Assembly (NCBI GenBank): GCA_947364365.1
Contig: CANASP010000009.1
Location: 39,177 to 103,176, forward strand
Direction: 5' to 3'
From: an uncultured Alistipes sp.
GTDB taxonomy: Bacteria > Bacteroidota > Bacteroidia > Bacteroidales > Rikenellaceae
DNA: 64,000 nucleotides
Below the pieces are notes generated by a model. That model did no database searches. It was not told the origin of the DNA and was given only the letters and a program-made list of their open reading frames with translations. The position numbers were made by a program, and so were the translations under genes. Positions 8,157 through 63,679 of the stretch are shown piece after piece; the stretch's first letter is position 1, and every line of letters begins with the position of its first letter.

Positions 8157-8160
8157 CACC

Positions 8161-8526
8161 GCAGGCCCGCTCTGTCGCCGCCGGAGCGATCCGGGGGAGG
8201 AAAGTCCGGGCAACGCAGAGCGCCACGCAAGCTAACGACTTGATGTCCGTGAGGGCATGGGAGCGTAACAGAGAACGACCGCCCCGCAGGAATGCGCATT
8301 CCCGCGGGGTAAGGGTGAAAAGGCGGGGTAAGAGCCCACCGCGGAGGCAGCGATGTCGTCCGGCAGTACGTCCCGTGGGTTGCAAGACCGTGTATACCGG
8401 CAGTCAAGGGTTGCTCGCCCGATGCCGGGGGGTAGGTTGCTGGAGGCGGCGGGTGACCGCCGTCGTAGATAAATGACAGGGGCCCGGGCTTCGGCCCGGG
8501 AACAGAACCCGGCTTACAGGGCCTGC
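8161..8526 (+). ncRNA. rnpB: RNase P RNA, bacterial class A
   Basis: The universal core elements are present: GAGGAAAGTCCGGGC near 8196 (5' strand of P4 region), the CRII-type AGAGAACGACCG segment near 8270, GGGTAAGGGTGAAAAGG near 8307, and the 3' core ACAGAACCCGGCTTAC near 8502. The ends are set by P1, in which GCAGGCCC (8161-8168) pairs with GGGCCTGC (8519-8526). The predicted RNA is 366 nt, normal for class A. It is the catalytic part of RNase P, which trims the 5' leader of tRNA precursors. It has its own promoter and a terminator hairpin. Confidence 0.96.
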
Positions 8527-8533
8527 AAACCGC

Positions 8534-8568: not shown

Positions 8569-8940
8569 TTCGCGTTGCGGATTGCGGCTCCGCAGGAGCC
8601 GTGCGGGCCGCAGCGACCCGAATGCGACGGCGAGAAGGGCGGCCTTGCCCCGAGTATGAATTTTTGCTGAACAAAGGCGCTCTTCGTTTTCGAAGAGCGG
8701 CAGCCCGCAGCCACCCCCGGCGGAGGGCTGCTTCGTCGGCTGCGCCTTCTTCGCACCTCTCCGCTGGCTGCGGACTTTCCTTTTCCCTCTGTAAATCGCG
8801 GCTCCATAGGAGCCGTGCGGGCCGCAGTCTCCCGGGCACGGAGGCCCGCAACCCCTGCGTGATGCGGACTCCGCAGGCTGCGGGCCGCCACTCTTCGGGA
8901 AAACCCGGAGAGTGCCTACCTCCGCAACAACACAAAACGG
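8569..8940. repeat. Gene-free region built from GC-rich palindromic repeat elements
   Basis: About 370 nt with no credible gene. It holds two copies of a GGCTCC-(3 nt)-GGAGCC hairpin followed by GTGCGGGCCGCAG (8586-8613 and 8801-8827). A plus-strand element begins with the hairpin CGCTCTTCG/CGAAGAGCG (8678-8699) and runs through CAGCCCGCAGCCACCCCCGG to CCGCTGGCTGCGG near 8773. A related element on the minus strand lies at about 8865-8935. Relatives occur at 50007-50107 and 60711-60800. Short reading frames across it are shadows of the repeats. Confidence 0.7.
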
Positions 8941-12556: not shown

Positions 12557-13273
12557 ATGAAAAAAACGATTGCGACACTGATGCTCGGCCTCGTGGCGAC
12601 GGGCATCGCCCTGGGACAGGACCCCGCAGGCCTGCCCCAGCACGACTGGGCCGGTCTTCGCGTCTATGCCCAGGCCGACAAGGAGATAAGCGAAGCCCCC
12701 GAGGTGGTCTTCATGGGCAACTCGATCACCGAAGGGTGGCGCCACCAGCACCCCGACTTCTTCACGCGCAACAACTTCGCCGGGCGCGGCATCAGCGGCC
12801 AGACCTCGTCGGAGATGCTCGTGCGGTTCCGTCAGGATGTCATCGACCTGCACCCCAAGGCGGTGGCGATTCTCGCGGGAACCAACGACCTGGCGATGAA
12901 CAACGGCTACATCGCGATGGAGAACATCGTGCGCAACATCGTCTCGATGTGCGAGCTGGCCCGCTTCAACGGCATCAAGGTGCTGTTGTGCTCCGTGCCC
13001 CCCGCCACCCGTTTCGGCTGGCGGCCCCAGATCGAGACCACCGAGCTCATCCCGCAGCTCAACGCCCTGCTCAAGGCCTACGCCGACACGGCGGAGGGTG
13101 TCGAGTGGGTCGACTACTTCTCGGCGCTGGCCGCACCCGACAACACGCTGCCGGAGACCTACTCGCCCGAAGGGTGCCACCCCAACGGCGAGGGCTACAA
13201 GGTGATGGAGCGGATCATCGTCCCGGCCATCAACCGGATCAACGGCACCGACAAGGAGTATTTCGTCTATTGA
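12557..13273 (+). CDS. SGNH/GDSL-family esterase, exported (copy 1)
   Basis: 238 residues with a clear signal peptide (cleavage near GIALGQ, residue 20). SGNH blocks are present: block I MGNSITEGW with the catalytic Ser, block II Gly in FAGRGISGQ, block III LAGTND, and the His in the block V-like segment CHPNGEGY. Such enzymes remove acetyl or other acyl groups from sugars. It is a close paralogue of the gene at 26550-27269, including a 64-bp run of identical DNA (13185-13248). It sits between GH36 and a sugar kinase. Confidence 0.9.
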   Translation: MKKTIATLMLGLVATGIALGQDPAGLPQHDWAGLRVYAQADKEISEAPEVVFMGNSITEGWRHQHPDFFTRNNFAGRGISGQTSSEMLVRFRQDVIDLHPKAVAILAGTNDLAMNNGYIAMENIVRNIVSMCELARFNGIKVLLCSVPPATRFGWRPQIETTELIPQLNALLKAYADTAEGVEWVDYFSALAAPDNTLPETYSPEGCHPNGEGYKVMERIIVPAINRINGTDKEYFVY

Positions 13274-26549: not shown

Positions 26550-27269
26550 ATGAAAAAAACGATTGCGACACTGGTGCTCGGCCTTCTGGCGACGGGCATC
26601 GCCCTGGGACAGAACTACTCCGACATGCTCTACCGCGACTGGGCCGGCCTGCGCGCCTTCGCCGGCGTGAACAAGACGCTGACCGAAGCGCCCGAGGTGG
26701 TCTTCATGGGCAACTCGATCACCGAAGGGTGGTTCAACTACCACCCCGAATTCTTCAAGAAGAACAACTTCGCCTGCCGCGGCATCGGCGGACAGACCTC
26801 GTCGGAGATGCTCGTGCGCTTCCGCCAGGATGTCATCGACCTGCATCCCGGGACGGTGGCGATCCTCGCGGGAACCAACGACATCGCGATGAACAACGGC
26901 TACATCGCCCTCGAGAACACGGTGCAGAACATCGTCTCGATGTGCGAGCTGGCCAAGTTCAACGGGATCAAGGTGCTGTTGTGCTCCGTGACGCCCGCGG
27001 CCTATTTCAACTGGCGGCCGCAGGTCGAACCCGCGAAGATCATCCCCGAGCTCAACCGCCTGCTCAAGGCCTATGCCGACGCCACCGAGGGCGTGGAGTG
27101 GGTCGACTACTTCACGGCGATGGTCGATCCGCAGAGCAAGGCCATGCGCGCCGACTACTCCTCCGAGGGGAGCCACCCCCACGGCGAGGGCTACAAGGTG
27201 ATGGAGCGGATCATCGTCCCGGCCATCAACCGGATCAACGGCACGAACAAGGAATATTTTATCTACTGA
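26550..27269 (+). CDS. SGNH/GDSL-family esterase, exported (copy 2)
   Basis: 239 residues, with a signal peptide ending near GIALGQ. Block I MGNSITEGW, LAGTNDIAMN and SHPHGEGY give the SGNH catalytic set. It is a close paralogue of the gene at 12557-13273: the first 24 bases are identical, as is a 64-bp run near the 3' end (27181-27244). It lies between two SASA esterases with gaps of only 4 nt on each side, making a block of three esterases. It probably deacylates the same glycan as its neighbours. Confidence 0.9.
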   Translation: MKKTIATLVLGLLATGIALGQNYSDMLYRDWAGLRAFAGVNKTLTEAPEVVFMGNSITEGWFNYHPEFFKKNNFACRGIGGQTSSEMLVRFRQDVIDLHPGTVAILAGTNDIAMNNGYIALENTVQNIVSMCELAKFNGIKVLLCSVTPAAYFNWRPQVEPAKIIPELNRLLKAYADATEGVEWVDYFTAMVDPQSKAMRADYSSEGSHPHGEGYKVMERIIVPAINRINGTNKEYFIY

Positions 27270-36188: not shown

Positions 36189-36417
36189 GCTGCGCCTTAG
36201 ACAGGCGGCGGCTCGGCCGAGCAAATTTATTTGCTCGGCAACTCGCCTTGCACTACTTTGGCTGCGCCTTAGATAGGCGGCGGCTCGGCAAAACGCAAAC
36301 TGCGTTTGCTTTTGCTCTCGCCTTGCACTACTTTGCGACAACAAGTTGCCGCTTAGATAGGCTGCGGCTCGGCCGAGCAAATAAATTTGCTCGGCAACTC
36401 GCCTTGCACTATCTTTG
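36189..36417 (+). repeat. Three-unit promoter-palindrome repeat array before yihY
   Basis: Three direct units (from about 36189, 36261 and 36336), each built as CTTAGATAGGCGGCGGCTCGG-like stretch (20 bases varying slightly), a palindrome, ACTCGCCTTGCAC, and a minus-7-like box. Palindromes: GCCGAGCAAAT-TT-ATTTGCTCGGC in the first, a GCAAAACGCA/TGCGTTTGC type in the second, GCCGAGCAAAT-AA-ATTTGCTCGGC in the third. Boxes are TACTTTG (36254-36260), TACTTTG (36329-36335) and the full TATCTTTG (36410-36417). The last lies 14 nt before the yihY ATG. Confidence 0.85.
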
Positions 36418-36431
36418 CAAAAACGATCCGC

Positions 36432-37736
36432 ATGTCGCTACGCCGCCTACGCACCTTCTTCACCGACACGATCCTCCGCCGCGAGCTCGACGCCTGGCAC
36501 AACCCCATCCTGCGATGGCTGGCCGGGCAGTACCGCCTGCTCTTCTACACCGCCCGCGGCCTGCGGGCCCACGGCACGATCGTCCGCTCGGCGGCGCTCA
36601 CCTTCTACACGCTCATCTCGCTCGTGCCCGTCATCGCGGTGGTCTTCGCCGTGATGAAGGGCTTCGGGCTGACCGACGGCGCGATCGACGACCTCTACCG
36701 CCTCTTCCCGCGCAACCCCGAGATCGTCGACTACCTCATCCGCTTCGCCGAGAACGCCCTGGCCCGCACGCGGGGCGGCGTGGTGGCCGCCGTGGCCCTC
36801 GCGACCCTCTTCTGGGCCGTGATCCGCGTCTTCGGGTCGATCGAGAGCGCTTTCGACAACATCTGGGAGGTCAAGGCCTCGCGCAGCATCGCCCGCAAGT
36901 GGGCCGACTACGTCGCCGTGGTGATGATCGTCCCGGTGCTGTGGACCGCGGCCAACGCCCTGGGCGGCTACCTGCGCGGCATCATGCCCTTCGACCGCCC
37001 GTGGATCTACGCCCTGATGGCCCGCCTGGCCTCGCTGGCGGTGATCTGGGCCATGTTCACGCTCCTCTACCTGATCATCCCCAACGCCCGCGTCCGCCTG
37101 CGCAGCGCCCTGACGGCCGGCATCGTCGCCGGCACGCTCTTCCTCGCCTTCCAGTGGGGCTACGTCTACCTCCAGCGGTGGATGACCTCCTACAACGCCA
37201 TCTACGGCAGCTTCGCGGCGCTGCCGCTGCTGCTCTTCTGGATGCAGACCTCGTGGCAGATCCTCCTGTTCGGCGGCGAGCTGTCGTTCGCCTACCAGAA
37301 CGTCGCCCGCTTCGCCGAGGAGCGCGAATCGCTGCTGGTGAGCCACGACCAGCGCCGCCGCGTGATGCTCGCCGTGATGCTGGTGGTCGCGGGGCGGTTC
37401 CGCACCGCCGGCGGCGCCTCGACCGTCGAGACGATCCGCGAACGGCTCGCGCTGCCCACGCGCATCGTCAACGACGTCGTATACCGCCTCGTCGAGGCCG
37501 GACAGCTGCTTGCGGTGAGGGCGGGCGACCGGGAGCGCGACGAGGCCTTCGTCCCGGCCTACGACATTGCCTCGATGGAGTTCGGCGCGATCGTCGAGGC
37601 GATCGACCGCGTGGGCGAAGGGTGTTTCACCCTCCCGCACTCGCCCGAAATGGAGCGCGTCGACCGCGAACTCGGCCGCATGCGCGAAACACTGTACCGC
37701 AACGGCGCCCGACGCCCGATCTCCGATCTCGTATGA
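36432..37736 (+). CDS. YihY/BrkB-family inner-membrane protein
   Basis: 434 residues. The N-terminal two thirds hold about six membrane helices with the family pattern ALTFYTLISLVPVIAVVFAV, FGSIESAFDNIWEVK and GSFAALPLLLFWMQTSWQI. The C-terminal 130 residues form a soluble helical tail with a winged-helix-like look (TIRERLALPTRIVNDVVYRL), which is usual in the longer Bacteroidetes members. The role of the family is unsettled; it was once labelled RNase BN. ATG 36432 is used because the in-frame ATG at 36387 lies within the repeat array upstream of its last promoter box. First gene of a three-gene operon. Confidence 0.88.
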   Translation: MSLRRLRTFFTDTILRRELDAWHNPILRWLAGQYRLLFYTARGLRAHGTIVRSAALTFYTLISLVPVIAVVFAVMKGFGLTDGAIDDLYRLFPRNPEIVDYLIRFAENALARTRGGVVAAVALATLFWAVIRVFGSIESAFDNIWEVKASRSIARKWADYVAVVMIVPVLWTAANALGGYLRGIMPFDRPWIYALMARLASLAVIWAMFTLLYLIIPNARVRLRSALTAGIVAGTLFLAFQWGYVYLQRWMTSYNAIYGSFAALPLLLFWMQTSWQILLFGGELSFAYQNVARFAEERESLLVSHDQRRRVMLAVMLVVAGRFRTAGGASTVETIRERLALPTRIVNDVVYRLVEAGQLLAVRAGDRERDEAFVPAYDIASMEFGAIVEAIDRVGEGCFTLPHSPEMERVDRELGRMRETLYRNGARRPISDLV

Positions 37737-41716: not shown

Positions 41717-44056
41717 ATGAAAAGACATTCGTTCCCGGCCTGCCTTCGGGCGGCTCTCCTCCTGCTCGCGACCGGCTGCGGAGCGGGCGACACAGCCCCG
41801 TTCGACGCGGCCCGCCATGTCGATCCCTTCATCGGCGCCAGCACGAGCACCGACGCCGCGGGCGTCTACCACGGGCTGGGCAAGACCTTCCCGGGGGCGA
41901 CGACGCCCCACGGCATGGCGCAGGTGAGCCCCAACACCATCTCGGGCGGCGACAACAGCCCCGGGTACAGCTACGAACACTCCACGATCGAGGGCTTCGC
42001 CTTCACGCAGATGAGCGGCGTGGGGTGGTTCGGCGACCTGGGCAACCTGCTCGTCATGCCGACCACCGGGCCGCTGCAAAAGATCGCGGGCCGCGAGGAC
42101 GGCTCGATCGCCGGTTACCGGTCGCACTTCGACAAGGCGTCGGAGCATGCCCGGGCGGGCTACTACGACGTCACGCTCTCGGACTACGGCATCCGCGTCG
42201 AGACCTCGGCCACGCCGCACTGCGGGGCGCTGCGCTTCACCTTCCCCGAGAGCGACCGCTCGCGCATCCAGATCGACCTGGCGCGCCGCGTGGGAGGCAC
42301 GGCCGAGCGGCAGTACGTCGAGGTGGTCGACGACCACACCCTCGCCGGATGGATCCGCTGCACGCCCGAGACGGGCGGCTGGGGCGACGGCGAAGGGCAG
42401 GTGGGCTACACGCTCCACTTCTATGCCCGGCTGAGCGAGCCGATCGCCGACTACGGCTTCTGGAGCGCCGACATCCCCGCATCGTGGTCGCGCCATAAGG
42501 ACGACGTGGTGCGCCCCGCATACCAGCAGCGCATCGCCGAGGCGCCTATCGTCCGCGGCCGGCGGTCGATCGAGGGCGACCACCTGGGGTTCTTCGTCGA
42601 GTTCCCCACCCGCGCCGGCGAGCAGGTCACCTTCAAGGCGGGCCTCTCGTTCGTCGACGCCCAAGGGGCGCGCCGCAACTTCGAGGCGGAGATCGCCGAC
42701 AAGGATTTCGACACGGTGGCCCGCGAGGCCTACGACGCCTGGAACCGCGCCCTGGGCCGCGTCCGCGTCGAGGGCGGCACGGAACGCGACCGGAGGATCT
42801 TCTACACGGCGCTCTACCACACGATGATCGATCCGCGGCTCTACACCGACGTCGACGGGCGCTACATGGGCGCCGACGGCCGGCCGCACGACACCGCGGG
42901 CCGCTTTACGAAGCGCACGCTCTTCAGCGGCTGGGACGTCTTCCGCAGCCAGATGCCGTTGCAGACGATCGTCAACCCCCGTCTGGTCGACGACCTGCTG
43001 CAATCGCTCGTCACGATGGCCGACGAGAGCGGCCGCGAATACTTCGAACGCTGGGAGCTGCTCAACGCCTACTCGGGCTGCATGATCGGCAACCCGGCGC
43101 TCTCGGTGCTGGCCGACGCCTACGCCAAGGGGATCCGGGGCTACGACATCGAACAGGCCTACCGCTATGCCGTCAACACCCAGCGGCTGTTCGGCAACGA
43201 GCCGCTGGGCTACACCCCGTCGGATTTCTCGATCGCCCACACGCTCGAATACGCCTACACCGACTGGTGCCTCGCGCAGCTGGCCGCGCAACTCGGCAAG
43301 AGCGACGACGCGGCGCTCTTCGCCCGCCGGAGCCAGGCCTACCGCAACGTCTTCGACCCCGAAAAGGGGTGGTTCCGCCCCCGCCTGTCCGACGGCGGGT
43401 GGGCGCCGTGGCCCGACGGGGCCCGCACCCAGGAGTGGTACGGCTGCATCGAGTCGACCCCCTACCAGCAGGGGTGGTTCGTGCCGCACGACATCGAGGG
43501 GATGGTCGCGCTGATGGGCGGCCGCGAGGCGGCGGTCGCCGACCTCGAAAACTTCTTCGAAAAGACGCCCGCCGATTTCGGCTGGAACGCCTACTACAAC
43601 CACGCCAACGAACCCGTCCACCTCGTGCCGTTCCTCTTCAACCGCCTCGGCCGGCCGTGGGAGACCCAGCGGTGGACACGCCATATCTGCCGCGCAGCCT
43701 ACGGCGACGGCCCCGAGGGGATCGTGGGCAACGAGGACGCGGGGCAGATGTCGGCCTGGTACGTGCTCGCGGCATCGGGCATCCATCCGGCCTGCCCGGG
43801 CGACACGCGGATGGAGATCACCTCGCCGCTGTTCGACCGCATCGAATTCGCGCTCGACCCGCGCTATGCGACGGGTAAACGATTCACGATCGTCGCCCAC
43901 GACAACGCACCGGAGAACCTCTACATCCGGCGGGCCCTGCTCGACGGGCATCCGCTCGACCGCTGTTACCTCGACTTCGCGGAGATCGCCGCCGGGGGGA
44001 CGCTCGAACTCTACATGGGCCCCGAACCCAACGAGGCGTGGGGGCTGGAGAAATAA
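41717..44056 (+). CDS. GH92 exo-alpha-mannosidase (copy 1)
   Basis: 779 residues with a lipoprotein-type signal (LLLLATGCGAG, Cys21). GH92 hallmarks: VDPFIGASTSTDAAG at the mature start, FPGATTPHGMAQVSP, SGVGWFGDLGNLLVMP, RTLFSGWDVFRSQMP, and GNEDAGQMSAWYVLAASG with the base Asp. The acid Glu probably lies in GCIESTPYQQGW. GH92 enzymes are calcium-dependent, inverting alpha-mannosidases acting on alpha-1,2, 1,3, 1,4 or 1,6 bonds of N-glycans and yeast mannan. Membrane anchoring suggests a periplasmic or surface place. Starts 10 nt after the GH38-like gene. Confidence 0.93.
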   Translation: MKRHSFPACLRAALLLLATGCGAGDTAPFDAARHVDPFIGASTSTDAAGVYHGLGKTFPGATTPHGMAQVSPNTISGGDNSPGYSYEHSTIEGFAFTQMSGVGWFGDLGNLLVMPTTGPLQKIAGREDGSIAGYRSHFDKASEHARAGYYDVTLSDYGIRVETSATPHCGALRFTFPESDRSRIQIDLARRVGGTAERQYVEVVDDHTLAGWIRCTPETGGWGDGEGQVGYTLHFYARLSEPIADYGFWSADIPASWSRHKDDVVRPAYQQRIAEAPIVRGRRSIEGDHLGFFVEFPTRAGEQVTFKAGLSFVDAQGARRNFEAEIADKDFDTVAREAYDAWNRALGRVRVEGGTERDRRIFYTALYHTMIDPRLYTDVDGRYMGADGRPHDTAGRFTKRTLFSGWDVFRSQMPLQTIVNPRLVDDLLQSLVTMADESGREYFERWELLNAYSGCMIGNPALSVLADAYAKGIRGYDIEQAYRYAVNTQRLFGNEPLGYTPSDFSIAHTLEYAYTDWCLAQLAAQLGKSDDAALFARRSQAYRNVFDPEKGWFRPRLSDGGWAPWPDGARTQEWYGCIESTPYQQGWFVPHDIEGMVALMGGREAAVADLENFFEKTPADFGWNAYYNHANEPVHLVPFLFNRLGRPWETQRWTRHICRAAYGDGPEGIVGNEDAGQMSAWYVLAASGIHPACPGDTRMEITSPLFDRIEFALDPRYATGKRFTIVAHDNAPENLYIRRALLDGHPLDRCYLDFAEIAAGGTLELYMGPEPNEAWGLEK

Positions 44057-50006: not shown

Positions 50007-50107
50007 GCCACGCTTCGGGAGTTCCCGAAGCGTGGCGGCCCGCAGCCACCCCCGGCGGAGGGCCGCACTCTTCGCATTCGCTCGCGTGCATCCCCCGCTG
50101 GCTGCGA
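50007..50107 (+). repeat. GC-rich intergenic palindromic element (copy)
   Basis: Starts with a perfect 14-bp hairpin GCCACGCTTCGGGA (50007-50020), loop GT, TCCCGAAGCGTGGC (50023-50036), then GGCCCGCAGCCACCCCCGG, and ends with CCGCTGGCTGCG near 50095-50106. It matches the elements at about 8678-8775 (+) and 60711-60800 (-). Confidence 0.75.
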
Positions 50108-58461: not shown

Positions 58462-59259
58462 ATGAAACGACTCCTTCTTTTCTGGGGGCTTCTATCCCTC
58501 GCTTGCGCGGCCGGCCTGACAGCAGCCGCGCCGCGCCCCGAAACGGGAAACAACCGATCCGAAACAGAGGAATACCGGTCGCTGGGAGCCGTAGACGCCG
58601 ACGGCGAGGCCGTAGACGAGGCGAGCGTCTTCGTGGGACGCCGGTGGCGGGTGCGCTTCTGCAACGCCCTGCCGCACGGCGAGGAGTTCACCGACACGGC
58701 GATCAGCGCGGGACACGAAAGCCTCCCCTTCAACTTCGACACGCTGGTCGTAGCCGGACCGATGACGGCGACGATCGCGGCCGAGCAGACGCGACGCTGC
58801 CTGGAACACTACGCCCGCAGCACGGACGTGGCACACGCGCCCGACGACGGCGCAGCGCTGCCCGAAGGGTGCGACCTGGCCGTAGTGCTGCGCGGGCTCG
58901 ACTTCCGCATCGCAGGGCGTGCCCGGCAGGCGGGGTTCCCGGAGCTGAATAAAGCCGAACACATCGAGGTTTCCTGGATCCATATCTCCGGCTACACCGC
59001 CTGGTCGCGCGATCCCTCGTGGTCGCGTTACGACCCGACCAGGAGCGCCACCCTCCCGCAGCACGACGACATCGAGGGCGAGGCCCGCATCACCTGCCGC
59101 ATGACGCTGGAGCTGATCGCCCCCGCGGCCCGGCGGACGATCACGCTCAAGGGCGAATACCGCACCGCCTTCGGCCGCGAGCGCGAGCTGACGGGGTGCA
59201 TCGCCCGCGCCGTGGGACATGCCGTCGACGACTTCGACCGGCTGTTGCTCGTGCGGTAG
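58462..59259 (+). CDS. Secreted protein of unknown function, 265 residues
   Basis: Not recognised. A signal peptide ([19 protein letters not shown], cleavage near residue 23) shows export. The mature part has several acidic stretches, [18 protein letters not shown] rich in Trp, then [20 protein letters not shown] that looks like a beta-hairpin. No membrane helix follows the signal. Lies between the OmpA-like gene and rnhB without an evident strong promoter. The rnhB repeat array begins 8 nt after its stop. Confidence 0.7.
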
Positions 59260-59267
59260 ATTTTATC

Positions 59268-59422
59268 TACCTTTGGCTGCGCCTTAAATACTCCCGCTCG
59301 GCAAAATGCAGGCGAGGTTGCTTTTGCCCTCGGCTTATTCGTATCTTTGGCTTCGCCCTAAATACTTCCGCTCGGCAAAGTGCAGGCGAGTTTGCTTTTG
59401 CCCTCGCTTATGCGTATTTTTG
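59268..59422 (+). repeat. Promoter-palindrome repeat array before rnhB
   Basis: Two full units and a final box: TACCTTTG (59268-59275), TATCTTTG (59342-59349) and TATTTTTG (59415-59422), spaced 74 and 73 nt. Each unit runs GCTGCGCCTTAAATACTCCC-like, GCTCGG, an imperfect palindrome closed by GGCAAA/TTTGCC ends around GCAGGCGAG, then CCTCGGCTTATTCG. The last box ends 4 nt before the rnhB ATG. Confidence 0.87.
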
Positions 59423-59426
59423 CCCC

Positions 59427-60029
59427 ATGCTCGAAACGCAATTCCAATACGACCTGCGCGAGGCGGGTTGCGACGAGGCGGGACGCGGTTGCCTCGCCGG
59501 ACCGGTCTTCGCCGCCGCGGTGATCCTGCCGCCCGACTTCCGCCACCCGCTGCTCAACGACTCCAAGCAGATGACCGCCCGCAACCGCGACCGGCTGCGC
59601 GAGGTGATCGAGCGCGAGGCCGTGGCGTGGGCCGTCGAGGAGGTGTCGGCGGCACGCATCGACGAGATCAACATCCTCAACGCCTCGTTCGAGGGGATGT
59701 CGCTCGCGGCGGCGCGGCTGAACCCCGCCCCCGAGCTGCTGCTCATCGACGGCAACCGCTTCCGCACGACGCTCGCGATCCCCTACCGCTGCATCGTCAA
59801 GGGCGACGGCAAGTACGCCGACATCGCCGCGGCGTCGGTGCTGGCCAAGACCCACCGCGACGAATACATGGAGCGGCTCGACGCCGCCTTCCCCCACTAC
59901 GGCTGGGGCCGCAACAAGGGTTACCCCACGCGCGAACACCGCCTGGCCATCCGTGCCCACGGCCTCACGCCCCACCACCGCCTCTCGTTCAACCACGAGA
60001 TCGACCAGCTGGAGCTCTTCCCCCTCTGA
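59427..60029 (+). CDS. rnhB: Ribonuclease HII
   Basis: 200 residues, typical length. Catalytic acids lie in [13 protein letters not shown] (Asp, Glu), LLIDGN (Asp) and the late KTHRDEYM (Asp); [17 protein letters not shown] is the diagnostic RNase HII segment. It removes RNA from RNA-DNA hybrids and single ribonucleotides from DNA in the cytoplasm. The start ATG 59427 directly follows a minus-7 box (TATTTTTG, 4-nt gap), so the mRNA is probably leaderless. No alternative start fits better because the protein's conserved part begins about 13 residues later. Confidence 0.96.
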
Positions 60030-60134
60030 CCGCGCACGACGCGGCGGAACACAGCAGGGCGCGGCATGCCCCGCATACCGCGCCCCGACCGGCTGCGCCT
60101 CCGTGCGGCACCGCCCTGCGGTGCATCCCCGGAG
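60030..60134. other. Short GC-rich gap between convergent rnhB and nitroreductase genes
   Basis: 105 nt with several short GC-rich inverted repeats (for example GCGCGG/CCGCGC around 60060-60090) that may end both transcripts. No T tract and no gene seen. Confidence 0.4.
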
Positions 60135-60668
60135 CTACTCCACCCGCACGACGCGGGACGCGTCGTCGGCCTCGGGCAGCGGCTTGGGCACGTAGTCGGA
60201 ATAGCCTATCGCCACGACGCACAGCGGCTCCCACTCCTCGCCCAGCGGCAGGAAGCCGCGCAGGTAGTCGGCCGCCGTCTCGCCCTCGGGCGCCTCCTTG
60301 CGGCGCGGACGGCCCGCGACCTGCACCCAGCACGACGCCAGCCCCTCGTCCACGGCCGCCAGTTGCAGCACCGTGGCCGCGATCGCGGCGTTGACCTCCC
60401 ACAGATCGCTCGCCCGGCGGTCGCCCGCCACGACGATCGCCAGAGGCGCCCCCGCCATGAAGGCCGATCCGTAGTCGCGCATCACCGCCATGCGTTCGAT
60501 CGCCGTGCGGTCGGTCACCACCGCGAGCCGCGTCGAGCGACTGTTGCGCGACGAGGGGGCCGCGAGCGCCGCGGCGACGAGCCGCTCGACGACGTCGGCC
60601 TCCACGGGCCGCTGGGTTTCGAACTTGCGCACGCTGCGGCGCCTGGAGATGAGTTCCTTGAATTCCAT
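60135..60668 (-). CDS. Nitroreductase-family flavoprotein
   Basis: 177 residues. The N-terminal MEFKELISRRRSVRKFETQR is the family's FMN-binding RRSxRxF type, followed by AALAAPSSRNSRSTRLAVV, a central AIAATVLQLAAVDEGLASCW and the C-terminal LCVVAIGYSDYVP. It binds FMN and reduces nitro or quinone compounds with NAD(P)H; the natural substrate is unknown. The likely promoter is TACATTTG on the minus strand (60860-60853), which leaves a leader of about 180 nt containing a GC-rich palindromic repeat element. Confidence 0.9.
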   Translation of the reverse strand: MEFKELISRRRSVRKFETQRPVEADVVERLVAAALAAPSSRNSRSTRLAVVTDRTAIERMAVMRDYGSAFMAGAPLAIVVAGDRRASDLWEVNAAIAATVLQLAAVDEGLASCWVQVAGRPRRKEAPEGETAADYLRGFLPLGEEWEPLCVVAIGYSDYVPKPLPEADDASRVVRVE

Positions 60669-60710
60669 ATTTCCGAAGTTTTTGAAAACAAACCGTTTTT
60701 TCACGCTGCG

Positions 60711-60800
60711 GCAGCCGGCCCGCAGCCAGCGGAGGCGCGAGGAAGGCTTCAGCCGACAGAGCAGCCCTCCGCCGGGGGGGGGCGGGCTGCCTCTTCGGGA
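60711..60800 (-). repeat. GC-rich intergenic palindromic element (copy, minus strand)
   Basis: Read on the minus strand it follows the same order as the copies at 8678-8775 and 50007-50107: CCCGAAGAGGCAGCCCGC, a C run, CCGGCGGAGGGCTGC, GTCGGCTG, and CCTCCGCTGGCTGCGG. It includes a G9 run on the plus strand (60774-60782) where the other copies have five. It lies in the leader of the nitroreductase gene. Confidence 0.72.
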
Positions 60801-60852
60801 TATCCGCAGAGGGGAGATGCGTCGCACACCGCGAAACAAAACACCCCGTTTG

Positions 60853-60880
60853 CAAATGTAACGAAAAAAAACTACTTTTG
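60853..60880. promoter_or_regulatory. Divergent minus-7 boxes for nitroreductase (-) and HAD phosphatase (+)
   Basis: CAAATGTA at 60853-60860 gives TACATTTG on the minus strand; TACTTTTG at 60873-60880 serves the plus strand, 21 nt before the HAD gene ATG. Confidence 0.72.
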
Positions 60881-60901
60881 AAGGGATAAATCCCTACGAA
60901 C

Positions 60902-61741
60902 ATGGAGACCCGCTTCACCATCGCCCTGATCTACGATTTCGACGGCACGCTCGCGCCGGGCAACATGCAGGAGTACGATTTCATCCCCGCCGTGGGCAAG
61001 AGCAACAAGGAGTTCTGGTCGGAGGCCAACTCGCTGGCCGAGGAGCAGGACGCCGACATGGTGCTCACCTACATGGCCCGCATGATCCAGGCCGCCAAGT
61101 CGCGCGGGCTGTCGCTGCGCCGCGAGGCCTTCCAGGAGTCGGGCCGCCGCGTCGTGCTCTTCCGCGGCGTCAGGGAGTGGTTCGGACGGATCAACGCCTA
61201 CGGCGCCGCCAAAGGGATACGCATCCTCCACTATATCAATTCGTCGGGTCTGAAGGAGATCATCGAGGGCACGGAGATCGCCCACGAGTTCCGCAAGATC
61301 TACGCTTGTTCGTTCCTCTACGACGTGGACGGCATCGCCTACTGGCCCGCCGTGGCGGTCAACTACACCAACAAGACGCAGTTCATCTTCAAGATCAACA
61401 AGGGGGTCGAGTCGGTCTTCGACTCCAAGCAGGTCAACCGCTACGTCCCCGAGGAGGAGCGCGCCGTGCCGTTCAAGCGGATGATCTACGTCGGCGACGG
61501 GACGACCGACATCCCCTGCATGCGGCTAGTGAAGAACTTCGGCGGCCACTCGATCGCCGTCTACAACCCCGATCAGAAGGGGGCCCGCCGGGAGATGGCC
61601 TCGCTCATCCACGACAACCGCGTCAACCACGTCTGCCCGGCCGACTACTCCGAGGGCGGCGACATGGACATGCTCGTTCGGACGATCATCGACAAGATCG
61701 ACCTCGACGAGCGCCTCGGACGGCTCGAAGTCGTGCGTTAG
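60902..61741 (+). CDS. HAD-superfamily phosphatase (phosphoserine phosphatase-like)
   Basis: 279 residues. HAD motifs: LIYDFDGTLAPGN (nucleophile Asp and acid Asp), LHYINSSGLKEII (motif II Ser), a conserved Lys region near VNRYVPEEERAVPFKRM, and YVGDGTTDIPC (motif IV). The long helical insert between motifs I and II is a C1-type cap, as in phosphoserine phosphatase-like enzymes. Cytoplasmic hydrolase of a small phosphorylated metabolite; substrate unknown. It is 3 nt before the small membrane protein gene, so it is in one transcript with the ABC pair. Confidence 0.85.
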   Translation: METRFTIALIYDFDGTLAPGNMQEYDFIPAVGKSNKEFWSEANSLAEEQDADMVLTYMARMIQAAKSRGLSLRREAFQESGRRVVLFRGVREWFGRINAYGAAKGIRILHYINSSGLKEIIEGTEIAHEFRKIYACSFLYDVDGIAYWPAVAVNYTNKTQFIFKINKGVESVFDSKQVNRYVPEEERAVPFKRMIYVGDGTTDIPCMRLVKNFGGHSIAVYNPDQKGARREMASLIHDNRVNHVCPADYSEGGDMDMLVRTIIDKIDLDERLGRLEVVR

Positions 61742-61744
61742 AAG

Positions 61745-62305
61745 ATGCGCCGCAGCAACATGATCCGCATCCTCGGCTGGTCGCCCGAATGGACGGCCGC
61801 ACTCCGCCGGCACCCGCAAGCGGCCGCCGGGCTCACTGCCGGACTGATGCTCTGCACACCCGTTCCCTACCTCTCGTTCGTCGCCCTGCTCGGCTCGGCC
61901 CTGCTCTGCGCCGGCATCTACGGCCGCAACGAACCGCTGCAACTCCTGCTGCTGCCCCGCATGGGTGCTTCGCGGCTCCTGGTCGGCAAGATCCGCACCG
62001 CCTGGCGCAACTATTTCGGCGCGACGCTCCCGCTGGCCGTCGCCGCCACGGCGTTCCATCCCCGCGCCGCCTGGATGGCCGCCCTGTGGCTGCCCCTCGC
62101 AGCCTGGGCGCTCGCCTATGTCGTACTGGCCAAATACGCCCGCTACGACCCCGCCAGTCCCGCATCCTCCGCATCGCCGGCCGCACGGTCGGGCCTCGCC
62201 GGCATCGTCCTGCCGCCGCTGCTGCCCGTGACGCTCTGGCTCACGATCCGCTATGCGCTCGACGCCGAACGCAACCTCGACCGGTATCTCTATGATTACG
62301 ATTGA
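61745..62305 (+). CDS. Small membrane protein, likely ABC transporter partner
   Basis: 186 residues with about four hydrophobic helices (AAAGLTAGLMLCTPVPYLSF, then around 95, 115 and 158). No family is recognised. It overlaps the following ATPase gene by 14 nt and so is probably the membrane half of a small ABC transporter or ABC-2-like export system. Only about half the size of a usual ABC-2 permease. An ATG at 61760 (MIRILGW) is an alternative start. Confidence 0.65.
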   Translation: MRRSNMIRILGWSPEWTAALRRHPQAAAGLTAGLMLCTPVPYLSFVALLGSALLCAGIYGRNEPLQLLLLPRMGASRLLVGKIRTAWRNYFGATLPLAVAATAFHPRAAWMAALWLPLAAWALAYVVLAKYARYDPASPASSASPAARSGLAGIVLPPLLPVTLWLTIRYALDAERNLDRYLYDYD

Positions 62306-62957
62306 TTCGCTCACGGTCCGTCACGGCCGCCGCACGGTACTCGACAACGTGACGATGCACCTCACCGAAGGGGCCGTCCACGCCCTGGTCGGCGGCGCCG
62401 GTGCCGGCAAGACCGCGCTGCTCGACACGCTTGCGGGCCTCGTCGCCCCCGCCTCGGGTTCAGCGAGCCGCTTCGGCCGCCCGCTCCGCCGCCGCGATAT
62501 CGCCTATCTCCCCTGCGAAAACCGCCTCTACGACGGCATGACGGGCCGCGACCTCATCGATCTTGCGGCCCACTACCATCCCGACGACGACCCCGCGATC
62601 TATGTCCGGCTCTTCGCGCTGCCCGTCGACGAGCGGATCGACCGCTGGCCCGCACCCCGGCAGAAGGCGCTGGCGCTCTGCCTGGCACTCGCACAGCACA
62701 CCCCCGTAGTGCTGCTCGACGAGCCTTTCGAAGGATTCGACACCACGGACCTGCGCACTGCCCAGCGGCTCATTCTCCGCCGCCAGGCCGAGGGCACGAC
62801 CTTCCTCGTCGCCGCGCGCGATATCCGGCTCGTGGCCGACATCGCCGACGACTTCCGTCTCGTCGACAACGGCCGGATCGTCGGATCATACCGCCGCGGG
62901 GAGTTCGCAGAAGCGCTCGCGGCGCTGCGATGCAAAAAGACCGCTTCCGTGTCTTGA
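62292..62957 (+). CDS. ABC-transporter ATPase with degenerate signature
   Basis: 221 residues. Walker A is GGAGAGKT (about residue 38), Q-loop is weak, Walker B with catalytic Glu is VVLLDEPFEG. The LSGGQ signature is replaced by a WPAPRQK-like segment just before ALALCLALAQ, and the switch His region reads VAARDIRL, with no His. It may bind ATP but hydrolyse it poorly, or act with another subunit. ATG 62292 (MITIDSLTVRHG) matches the usual start of the fold. Partner is the overlapping membrane protein gene. Confidence 0.85.
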   Translation: MITIDSLTVRHGRRTVLDNVTMHLTEGAVHALVGGAGAGKTALLDTLAGLVAPASGSASRFGRPLRRRDIAYLPCENRLYDGMTGRDLIDLAAHYHPDDDPAIYVRLFALPVDERIDRWPAPRQKALALCLALAQHTPVVLLDEPFEGFDTTDLRTAQRLILRRQAEGTTFLVAARDIRLVADIADDFRLVDNGRIVGSYRRGEFAEALAALRCKKTASVS

Positions 62958-63093
62958 ATATTCCCGCCCGGCAAACTCAAAACAAGTTTTGGTTTGCTCT
63001 CGGCTTATTCGTACTTTGACTAAAGTCGAAGATACTTTCGCTCGGTAAAAAGCAAGCTCGCTTGCTTTTTACCCTCGCTTATTTGTATCTTTG
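62957..63093 (+). repeat. Promoter-palindrome repeat array before rdgB
   Basis: Two units. The first ends in TACTTTG (63012-63018), a box one base short; the second ends in TATCTTTG (63086-63093), 74 nt later and 4 nt before the rdgB ATG. The second unit carries a perfect 14-bp palindrome, GGTAAAAAGCAAGC (63044-63057), TC, GCTTGCTTTTTACC (63060-63073); the first has an imperfect GGCAAACTCAAAAC/GTTTTGGTTTGC palindrome. Confidence 0.87.
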
Positions 63094-63097
63094 CCCC

Positions 63098-63679
63098 ATG
63101 AAAATCCTCTTCGCCACCAACAACGCCCACAAAATAGCCGAAGTCGCGGCCGTACTGGGCGAGGGATATACGCTCCTCACGCCCCGCGACTGCGGCCTGA
63201 CGGAGGAGATCCCCGAAACGCAGCCCACGCTCGAGGGCAACGCCTTGCAGAAGGCCCGCTATCTGCACGAGCGCACCGGCGCCGACTGCTTCGCCGACGA
63301 CACGGGGCTCGAAGTCGAGGCGCTCGGCGGCGCCCCCGGGGTCCGTTCGGCGCGCTACGCCACCGACGGCCACGACTTCGAGGCCAACAACCGTCTGCTG
63401 CTCCGCAACCTCGAAGGCGAGGAGAACCGCCGCGCCCGCTTCCGCACGGTCGTGGCCCTGATCCTCGGCGGCGAGGAATACCTGTTCGAAGGGATCGTCG
63501 AGGGGCGCATCATCGACCGCGAAACGGGCGACGAAGGGTTCGGCTACGACCCGCTGTTCGTCCCCGACGGCTTCGACCGCACCTTCGCCCAGATGACTGC
63601 CGAGGAGAAGAACGCCACGTCGCACCGCGGCCGCGCCGTGCGCAAGCTGGCCGATTTCCTCCGCACGATCGAAAAATAA
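63098..63679 (+). CDS. rdgB: Non-canonical purine NTP pyrophosphatase (RdgB/HAM1)
   Basis: 193 residues. It starts with [16 protein letters not shown], the family's SNN/TNN-x-K substrate motif at the expected distance from Met1, so ATG 63098 is firm. Other motifs: [35 protein letters not shown] and SHRGRA. It hydrolyses ITP, dITP and XTP to monophosphates, keeping these bases out of nucleic acids. The gap to the minus-7 box is 4 nt (TATCTTTGCCCCATG), implying a leaderless mRNA. Four nt separate it from folE. Confidence 0.96.

Follow-up and report, generated by a model that had tools for sequence, protein, structure and literature searches.

What kind of element is it that occurs in seven copies, at three places and always in front of a gene, in a 64,000-nucleotide stretch of the genome of an uncultured Alistipes species (the window in the following)? 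A preliminary description had characterized these copies as units that pair a promoter box with a palindrome of variable sequence, and had offered mobile promoter cassettes, terminator-promoter insulators or binding sites as possible explanations. The positions were re-read and searched with a covariance model, R1, which was built from the seven units of the window and nine other units of the genome and which has the inner hairpin as its only structure. All seven units are present on the plus strand (Table 1). They score 43-84 bits with R1, partly by construction, as all seven are part of the model, and the sole further match in the window up to E = 1 is a 20-bit echo of the unit at 63027-63093 on the reverse strand. 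A box spacing of 73-75 nt in most cases had been reported, which is half right, as the distances from unit start to unit start are 72, 84, 74 and 74 nt. The variable letters of the gene-proximal box of array B are those of the initial inverted arm of its own unit (AAATAC), and the upstream gene's stop codon (62955-62957) lies within the first unit of array C. All three arrays had been thought to point toward a housekeeping gene; this is true for ribonuclease HII and the RdgB-type NTP diphosphatase, but the third gene encodes a membrane protein of the YihY/BrkB family.

Table 1. Features of the three unit arrays in the window and of the adjacent genes.
Feature	Position	Strand	Remark
Array A, three units	36196-36261, 36268-36335, 36352-36417	+	last unit is the CTATC/GATAG outer-arm variant
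-33-like TTTG of array A	36386..36389	+	in inner hairpin 3' arm, 20 nt 5' of box
Gene-proximal -7 box of array A, TATCTTTG	36410..36417	+	
Gene after array A: YihY/BrkB family membrane protein	36432..37736	+	profile search
Array B, upstream box TACCTTTG and two units (59283-59349, 59357-59422)	59268..59422	+	
-33-like TTTG of array B	59391..59394	+	20 nt 5' of box
Gene-proximal -7 box of array B, TATTTTTG	59415..59422	+	
Gene after array B: ribonuclease HII	59427..60029	+	ATG 4 nt 3' of box; profile search
Gene upstream of array C: ABC-type ATPase-like	62292..62957	+	by eye
Array C, two units	62953-63018, 63027-63093	+	
-33-like TTG of array C	63062..63064	+	21 nt 5' of box
Gene-proximal -7 box of array C, TATCTTTG	63086..63093	+	
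Gene after array C: RdgB/HAM1-type non-canonical purine NTP diphosphatase	63098..63679	+	ATG 4 nt 3' of box; profile search

The window also contains several features outside the arrays, namely a bacterial RNase P class A RNA (8159-8532), two stretches about 14 kb apart (12557-13273 and 26550-27269) that are 84% and 90% alike, and neighbouring genes between 41717 and 48591 with direct repeats at 42738, 44976 and 47279, which are likely paralogues.

The units are about 66-75 bp long and have a common order. An inverted arm (e.g. GAAGATAC) is followed by a short joint, two to three bases, TCGG, the inner hairpin and CTC, and then by the partner bases, TTATTC or a similar sequence, and the box (GTATCTTTG). 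Three stems are nested in this arrangement, the outer stem between the TAnnTTTG box and its inverted copy at the unit start, a middle stem of 2-3 bp, and the inner hairpin, while junction palindromes such as GGCTTCGCC, GACTTCGTC, GATTTCATC and others are found between neighbouring units. The pairing of the hairpin had been recognized from the beginning and was borne out, but the outer, middle and junction pairing of its flanks had been overlooked. Folding as single-stranded DNA yielded the nested structure for five of six units, with z values of -2.9 to -4.8; the sixth, 59281-59349, did not form it alone (z -1.1).

The palindromes had been said to differ in sequence and to keep pairing nevertheless, and this is confirmed by a comparison of the arms. 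For 56 distinct hairpins, derived from the 76 that were parsed among 78 units of at least 40 bits and including a few with extra flank letters, the pairing of the hairpins with their own arms totalled 472.5, compared to a maximum of 361 in 5000 re-pairings. The own arm was the best partner, ties included, in 27 of the hairpins, and it was above the median in 52. The alignments used for the analysis of covariation were fitted to R1, a model with the inner stem as its only structure, and all shuffle tests are inflated by the common descent of the copies. With this limitation, both partners had changed in 13 of the 18 pairs of the inner and outer stems when 74 distinct genome units were compared, and covariation was 0.322 versus 0.112 after shuffling (0 of 500 shuffles as high) and at most 0.074 for slid structures. 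In a second set of 47 distinct units, the majority taken from other genera and families, but with L106 and L083 from the source's own bacterial family and two viral contigs among them, 16 of the 18 pairs were changed on both sides, and the respective values were 0.405, 0.125 (0 of 500 as high) and at most 0.084.

The same pattern was found for the smaller stems. The middle stem occurs in variants such as GCC/GGC, GGC/GCC, CGT/ACT, GTC/GAC, ACC/GGT and GTT/AAC, and its three positions are Watson-Crick pairs in 67, 61 and 35 of the 74 units (numbers that none of 2000 shuffles reached) and, for the outside set, in 43, 43 and 24 of the 47 units (reached by 29, 0 and 0 of 2000). TCGG is present in 67/74 and 41/47 units, and CTC in 71/74 and 45/47. 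Junction stems of at least 3 bp were found in 41/42, 29/37 and 12/14 cases in three sets, and among 39 distinct spacers 32 pair at the second and 34 at the third position, compared to at most 23 and 28 in 5000 shuffles. The two variable letters of the box are the same in the arm of its own unit in 101 of 109 cases, a number that none of 5000 shuffles reached, and the agreement holds for 10 of the 14 boxes with letters other than TC. The arm disagrees with its own box in the other 8 of the 109; arms agree with the previous box in 49 of 58 cases, and therefore outer and junction pairing are only partly separable. The inner hairpin is mostly bulged, and the commonest bulge is an unpaired T in the 5' arm. 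Among the few inner-stem mismatches, G-T accounts for 12, 6 and 8 and A-C for 13, 4 and 9 in the three sets, and this lack of a G-T excess gives no sign that RNA, or one given strand, is the folded form. Compensatory changes in four stems support the initial proposal that selection acts on a hairpin or cruciform. Some hairpins combine arms of two classes joined at the loop (L073 2942 and 3016, L074 2635, L069 2985); none of these mosaic units is gene-proximal, and they show recombination at the loop.

Many copies exist elsewhere, as the genome-wide search yielded at least 86 R1 matches at E<=0.001 in the 2.15-Mb draft genome, with 150 of 820 candidates scored. Placement was analysed in 41 sources with 314,658 bases, i.e. 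the window and 40 regions around covariance model and BLAST matches, and genes in the fetched regions were called with a purpose-built small gene finder. At E<=0.01, 95 matches were obtained, with at least one in 40 of the 41 sources. They form 50 arrays, none of them inside a gene, and the next downstream gene is on the same strand in all 50 cases, compared to a fraction of 0.63 for random intergenic placement in the same regions. The upstream gene is divergent in 26 cases and codirectional in 20, and none was called in 4. At other Alistipes loci, which were chosen among the best matches, 31 of 39 arrays precede a gene on the same strand, one faces a gene on the opposite strand, and seven are without a called gene; outside of the genus, 20 of 29 arrays lie before a co-oriented gene, four are opposite, and five are without a call. 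Arrays themselves are head-to-tail, and opposed unit pairs (L049, L056, L057) sit between divergent genes. At one of these places (L056 7299-7366) the divergent EngB and Der genes share a single palindrome, which lies between them and gives a partial-unit score on either strand.

Twenty of the 50 downstream genes were profiled. All of them match NCBIfam models at <=1e-10, and 18 score above the cut-off of a model, the two below it being those for transketolase and Xaa-Pro aminopeptidase. The majority encode housekeeping proteins, namely ribonuclease HII, the RdgB-type diphosphatase, LepA, AspS, DnaX, TruA, QueA, EngB, Der, DapF, PssA, AroQ, UvrA, CdaA and transketolase. The remaining genes encode tryptophanase, a MATE transporter, a YihY/BrkB protein, the Xaa-Pro aminopeptidase and a Rid protein. 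Judged by eye, another intergenic palindrome, made up of GGCTGCGGGCCGCC and a hairpin, also seems to be dispersed in several copies; it was seen in the window at 8876-8914 and 50009-50047 and in the upstream parts of L046, L063, L072 and L075, several times directly 5' of arrays.

The gene-proximal units contain promoter elements of the sigma-ABfr type, TTTG or TTG at -33 and TAnnTTTG at -7, although the model favours such letters. A TTG is present 19-21 nt 5' of the box in 49 of the 50 gene-proximal units of the genome, in 39 of 39 at the other Alistipes loci (chosen among the best matches) and in 17 of 29 in other genera and families, rates that are partly due to construction because R1 favours these letters. 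The TAnnTTTG consensus is fitted by 41 of 50 gene-proximal boxes versus 24 of 45 internal boxes (p=0.004, with copies that are not independent), and a frequent defect of internal boxes is one missing base (TACTTTG). TTTG and TAnnTTTG are given as the Bacteroides promoter consensus in PMC7366714, and the TTG and TAnnTTTG of the units match the consensus quoted there. We infer from these letters that the gene-proximal unit would carry an active promoter of the Bacteroidota type. At several genes the box is only a few nucleotides 5' of the ATG (spacers 59423-59426 and 63094-63097 in the window, and rnhB in several of the loci L079-L106), and so close a box would leave these Alistipes mRNAs with no leader or hardly any. 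At three loci from other families (L203, L208, L210) the paired outer arms are, by eye, not a promoter box; therefore, the fold may be older and the promoter one use of it.

Orthologous promoters were compared between relatives, a comparison in which an absence may be a loss as well as a lack of gain. No unit was found upstream of rnhB in 30 Alistipes and Rikenellaceae loci, one of which (L081) has only 134 nt of upstream sequence, and many of these loci have a plain box a few nucleotides 5' of the ATG. One Bacteroides rnhB gene (locus L155) does follow a unit-like promoter, which would allow for an old presence with many losses. Upstream of rdgB, no unit was found in 20 genomes. In four of them (G116, G110, G108, G086) a similar gene lies upstream and stops, judged by eye, no more than a few tens of nucleotides from rdgB, in contrast to the source genome, in which the stop codon of the upstream gene falls into the first unit. 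When 20 promoters were compared per genome, all chosen for their arrays in the source genome, in sets that differ by one gene and with one locus (L328) ending early at a contig end, units were present at 0 of 20 in G116, 3 of 20 in G139 and 6 of 20 in G076.

The sequences at some of these promoters give hints about the history of the arrays. At uvrA, pssA and tkt the upstream box of the array is preceded, by eye, by sequence like the plain promoters of relatives. The last box and leader at uvrA, GTATCTTTACG, are the same as in the plain promoter of G116. At lepA the last box is TATATTTG in the source genome and in G116, but not in G139 or G076, and the inverted arms match it in three of four units; the last box is thus a native-like variant, which a simple insertion 3' of the native box would not yield. 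Of the 85 arrays of the source genome and other Alistipes loci, 34 have a box ahead of their first unit, which is what a duplication of the box as target site might leave; no pair of an empty and a filled promoter that is exact at base resolution was found among the compared relatives. Adjacent hairpins are more than 0.9 alike in 12% of 34 and 22% of 32 pairs, versus 4% and 6% between arrays, and this excess indicates some tandem duplication. Taken together with the patchy presence at orthologous promoters, the mostly unlike neighbours make the arrays look as if they were built by repeated insertion, that is, mostly by the arrival of unlike units, with some duplication.

The units were also searched for outside of the species. 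Among 151 Alistipes genomes at least 59 have a match at 1e-5, with between 1 and at least 34 matches each. On the level of the order, at least 24 of 247 genomes, the source included, match at 1e-4, representing 17 of 174 genera, and on the level of the class at least 3 of 295 genomes match, again including the source, all of them from the same order. Several candidates for a carrier or mover were tried and rejected. No plasmid match was found; phage matches comprised three partial ones to unannotated faecal phage records and an exact 20-mer in three viral contigs, whose units score 90 (L219), 67 (L218) and 45 bits (L217) with R1, and neither plasmids nor phages are supported as the main carrier. 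A RAYT/REPtron as resident mover is rejected as well, because the source genome (87% complete) has no Y1_Tnp match and just two of the 180 Alistipes genomes have a Y1 transposase match, which is fragmentary in one case; the locus with the full Y1 transposase (L340) contains no unit. Of the 180 Alistipes genomes, 17 contain the RT-7 RNA (RF03028), frequently as tandem copies (with steps of about 420-540 nt in G007), and a sub-threshold RT-7 RNA at L083 1502-1671 is about 250 nt away from a unit-like match. It was found in 12 of 31 genomes with at least ten unit matches versus 2 of 120 others among the 151 genomes (Fisher 5e-8, kinship ignored). A link to a retroelement was nevertheless rejected, as only 2 of 30 RT-7 loci have a unit match, both weak, and the source genome has no RT-7 match. 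Five RT-7 loci of L342-L371 look, by eye, like target repeats of diversity-generating retroelements.

Several known systems share features with the units. What is recognised in integron attC sites and in the ends of IS200/IS605 elements is a folded single strand, in which stems vary and some bases stay unpaired, and in IS200/IS605 a 5' guide pairs with the 3' site. The units resemble both of them, and also REPs, in being bulged hairpins of variable sequence with a fixed foot, but the lack of a Y1 transposase match in the source genome sets them apart from IS200/IS605 and from RAYT-mobilised REPs. According to PMC3733652, REPs are short palindromes outside genes, in which the stem varies while an unpaired tag at one end is fixed; they are unevenly distributed between species, and CGTC REPs also seem to be without a dedicated transposase. 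The units are likewise short extragenic palindromes with a variable stem, fixed letters and a patchy presence between species, as are REPs of the GTAG and CGTC types. However, their near-fixed letters are TCGG (5') and CTC (3') instead of a GTAG or CGTC tag, their stems are nested, and they are built into a promoter and co-oriented with genes. In addition, the unit arrays are head-to-tail, in contrast to the dimers of REPs, which are mainly head-to-head or tail-to-tail, while head-to-tail dimers are described there as absent, under-represented or negligible.

Promoter-bringing repeats have been described as Correia elements of Neisseria (204 bp) and as BrickBuilt of Porphyromonas gingivalis, with consensus terminal inverted repeats in both cases and 23-nt direct repeats in BrickBuilt (PMC10969869, PMC4596501). 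The units would similarly bring promoters to neighbouring genes, but in a comparison by description only they differ from these MITEs in that their inverted repeats vary together with the box while the fold stays constant. PM2 of Bacteroides thetaiotaomicron is a near-palindromic promoter motif of 75 coding genes with elements at -10 and -30 (PMC7366714); it is likewise a palindromic feature at Bacteroidales promoters, compared here by its description, but the boxes of the units lie at -7 and -33. The repetitive hairpin elements of sponge and fungal mitochondria (PMC2800124) are organellar repeats known by their hairpin-forming elements, with no promoter architecture described in the part of the source seen, in contrast to the bacterial units at promoters. 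Rfam gave no match at E<=5 over window positions 59200-63150, which include arrays B and C, and none at the gathering threshold for array A. The units belong to none of the REPs, promoter MITEs and Rfam families by the criteria examined, and no description of the Alistipes unit family was found in the open-access literature, with most subscription papers beyond reach.

Several explanations compete for these observations. The units might be operators, with a dimeric or architectural protein that binds the dyad, forms a regulon and binds cooperatively to tandem units. This would account for the dyad symmetry, the near-fixed TCGG and CTC, the tandem copies with a spacing of about 74 nt and the co-orientation with genes. 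However, the arms change their sequence freely while pairing is kept, unlike in an operator that is read by sequence, the functions of the 20 profiled among 50 downstream genes are diverse, and presence is patchy between species at the same genes. We consider operators unlikely, and the initial suggestion of binding sites in the ordinary sense is weakened by the free variation of the arms. The structure could instead act in RNA, with hairpins that end or process upstream transcripts, or that lie in a leader transcribed from the upstream box, as in a terminator-promoter insulator. Some hairpins indeed have a run of A and a run of T flanking a GC-rich stem (63044-63073, by eye), the upstream box of an array would place a unit in a leader, and 20 of the 46 called upstream genes are codirectional. 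The other 26 are divergent, and a divergent upstream gene needs no stop of read-through; moreover, the last hairpin is upstream of its own promoter, the small numbers of G-T mismatches do not exceed those of A-C, and Rfam yielded nothing over arrays B and C. The insulator that had been proposed has thus lost ground, and a function in RNA appears distinctly improbable.

The pairing might also be kept passively, by template switching between the arms together with gene conversion, with neither a selected fold nor transposition. The mosaic hairpins and the slight likeness of adjacent units are what this process would produce, but it should erase the unpaired T, which recurs across classes, and middle stems of only 2-3 bp co-vary beside the near-fixed TCGG and CTC. 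It also leaves the arrival at new genes unexplained, provided that relatives lacked the units from the beginning. These data only partly separate a selected fold from passive arm-to-arm copying, but the recurring T and the co-varying middle stem speak for selection, and we regard passive pairing as quite unlikely. A classical MITE, moved by a DDE transposase and with terminal inverted repeats formed by the box and its inverted counterpart, would resemble Correia and BrickBuilt in its shortness, outer inverted repeats, intergenic spread and internal promoter elements. The outer arms of the units are not fixed ends, however, but vary together with the box, and a single orientation to the gene was found in 50 of 50 arrays, which makes this origin quite improbable.

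The explanation that we favour, with moderate confidence, is that the units are a short, non-autonomous, mobile-like repeat defined by its fold, which enters promoters at the -7 box and supplies a promoter itself. Of the initial suggestions, mobile promoter cassettes fit best: the copies are dispersed, run in the direction of the next gene in every one of the 50 arrays, and are patchy at orthologous promoters and mostly unlike their neighbours, from which we infer mobility, while the promoter activity would follow from the elements described above. A single strand or cruciform would form the outer stem, the middle stem of 2-3 bp and the inner hairpin around an internal loop of TCGG and CTC, such that the -7 box serves as the 3' outer arm while the -33 TTG falls into the hairpin's 3' arm. 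The unit may enter at a native -7 box and leave a box before the gene, so that the gene would keep a promoter at the same place. If further units entered at a box already present, head-to-tail arrays of unlike units would result, all of them directed toward the gene. The unit would be moved by a putative structure-reading enzyme acting on the hairpin as in the case of IS200/IS605 ends, REPs and attC. Several observations count against this explanation, among them that 24 of 45 internal boxes are still intact and that some related copies in other families are without a box or not located before a co-oriented gene, and also the negative search for a mover, the missing exact pair of an empty and a filled promoter, the unit-like rnhB promoter in Bacteroides, the likeness of some adjacent units, the last box at lepA, the arms that disagree with their own box and the one unit that did not form the nested structure. 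A more specific version, in which the 5' outer arm pairs with the -7 box of the host as insertion address, so that a single orientation results, the promoter is rebuilt and a structure-reading enzyme drives the spread through dozens of housekeeping promoters of Bacteroidales, is doubtful, and we put it forward tentatively.

The units would represent natural tandem promoters with hairpins near -33, and could be used in reporter work. If the favoured explanation is true, the basal promoters of some gut Alistipes have partly been rebuilt by a spreading repeat that is identified by its fold, with 50 arrays in a genome of 2.15 Mb. This would be an example of mobile DNA that targets core promoters and is harmless because the promoters are restored, and it would point to a hairpin-reading enzyme in Bacteroidales.
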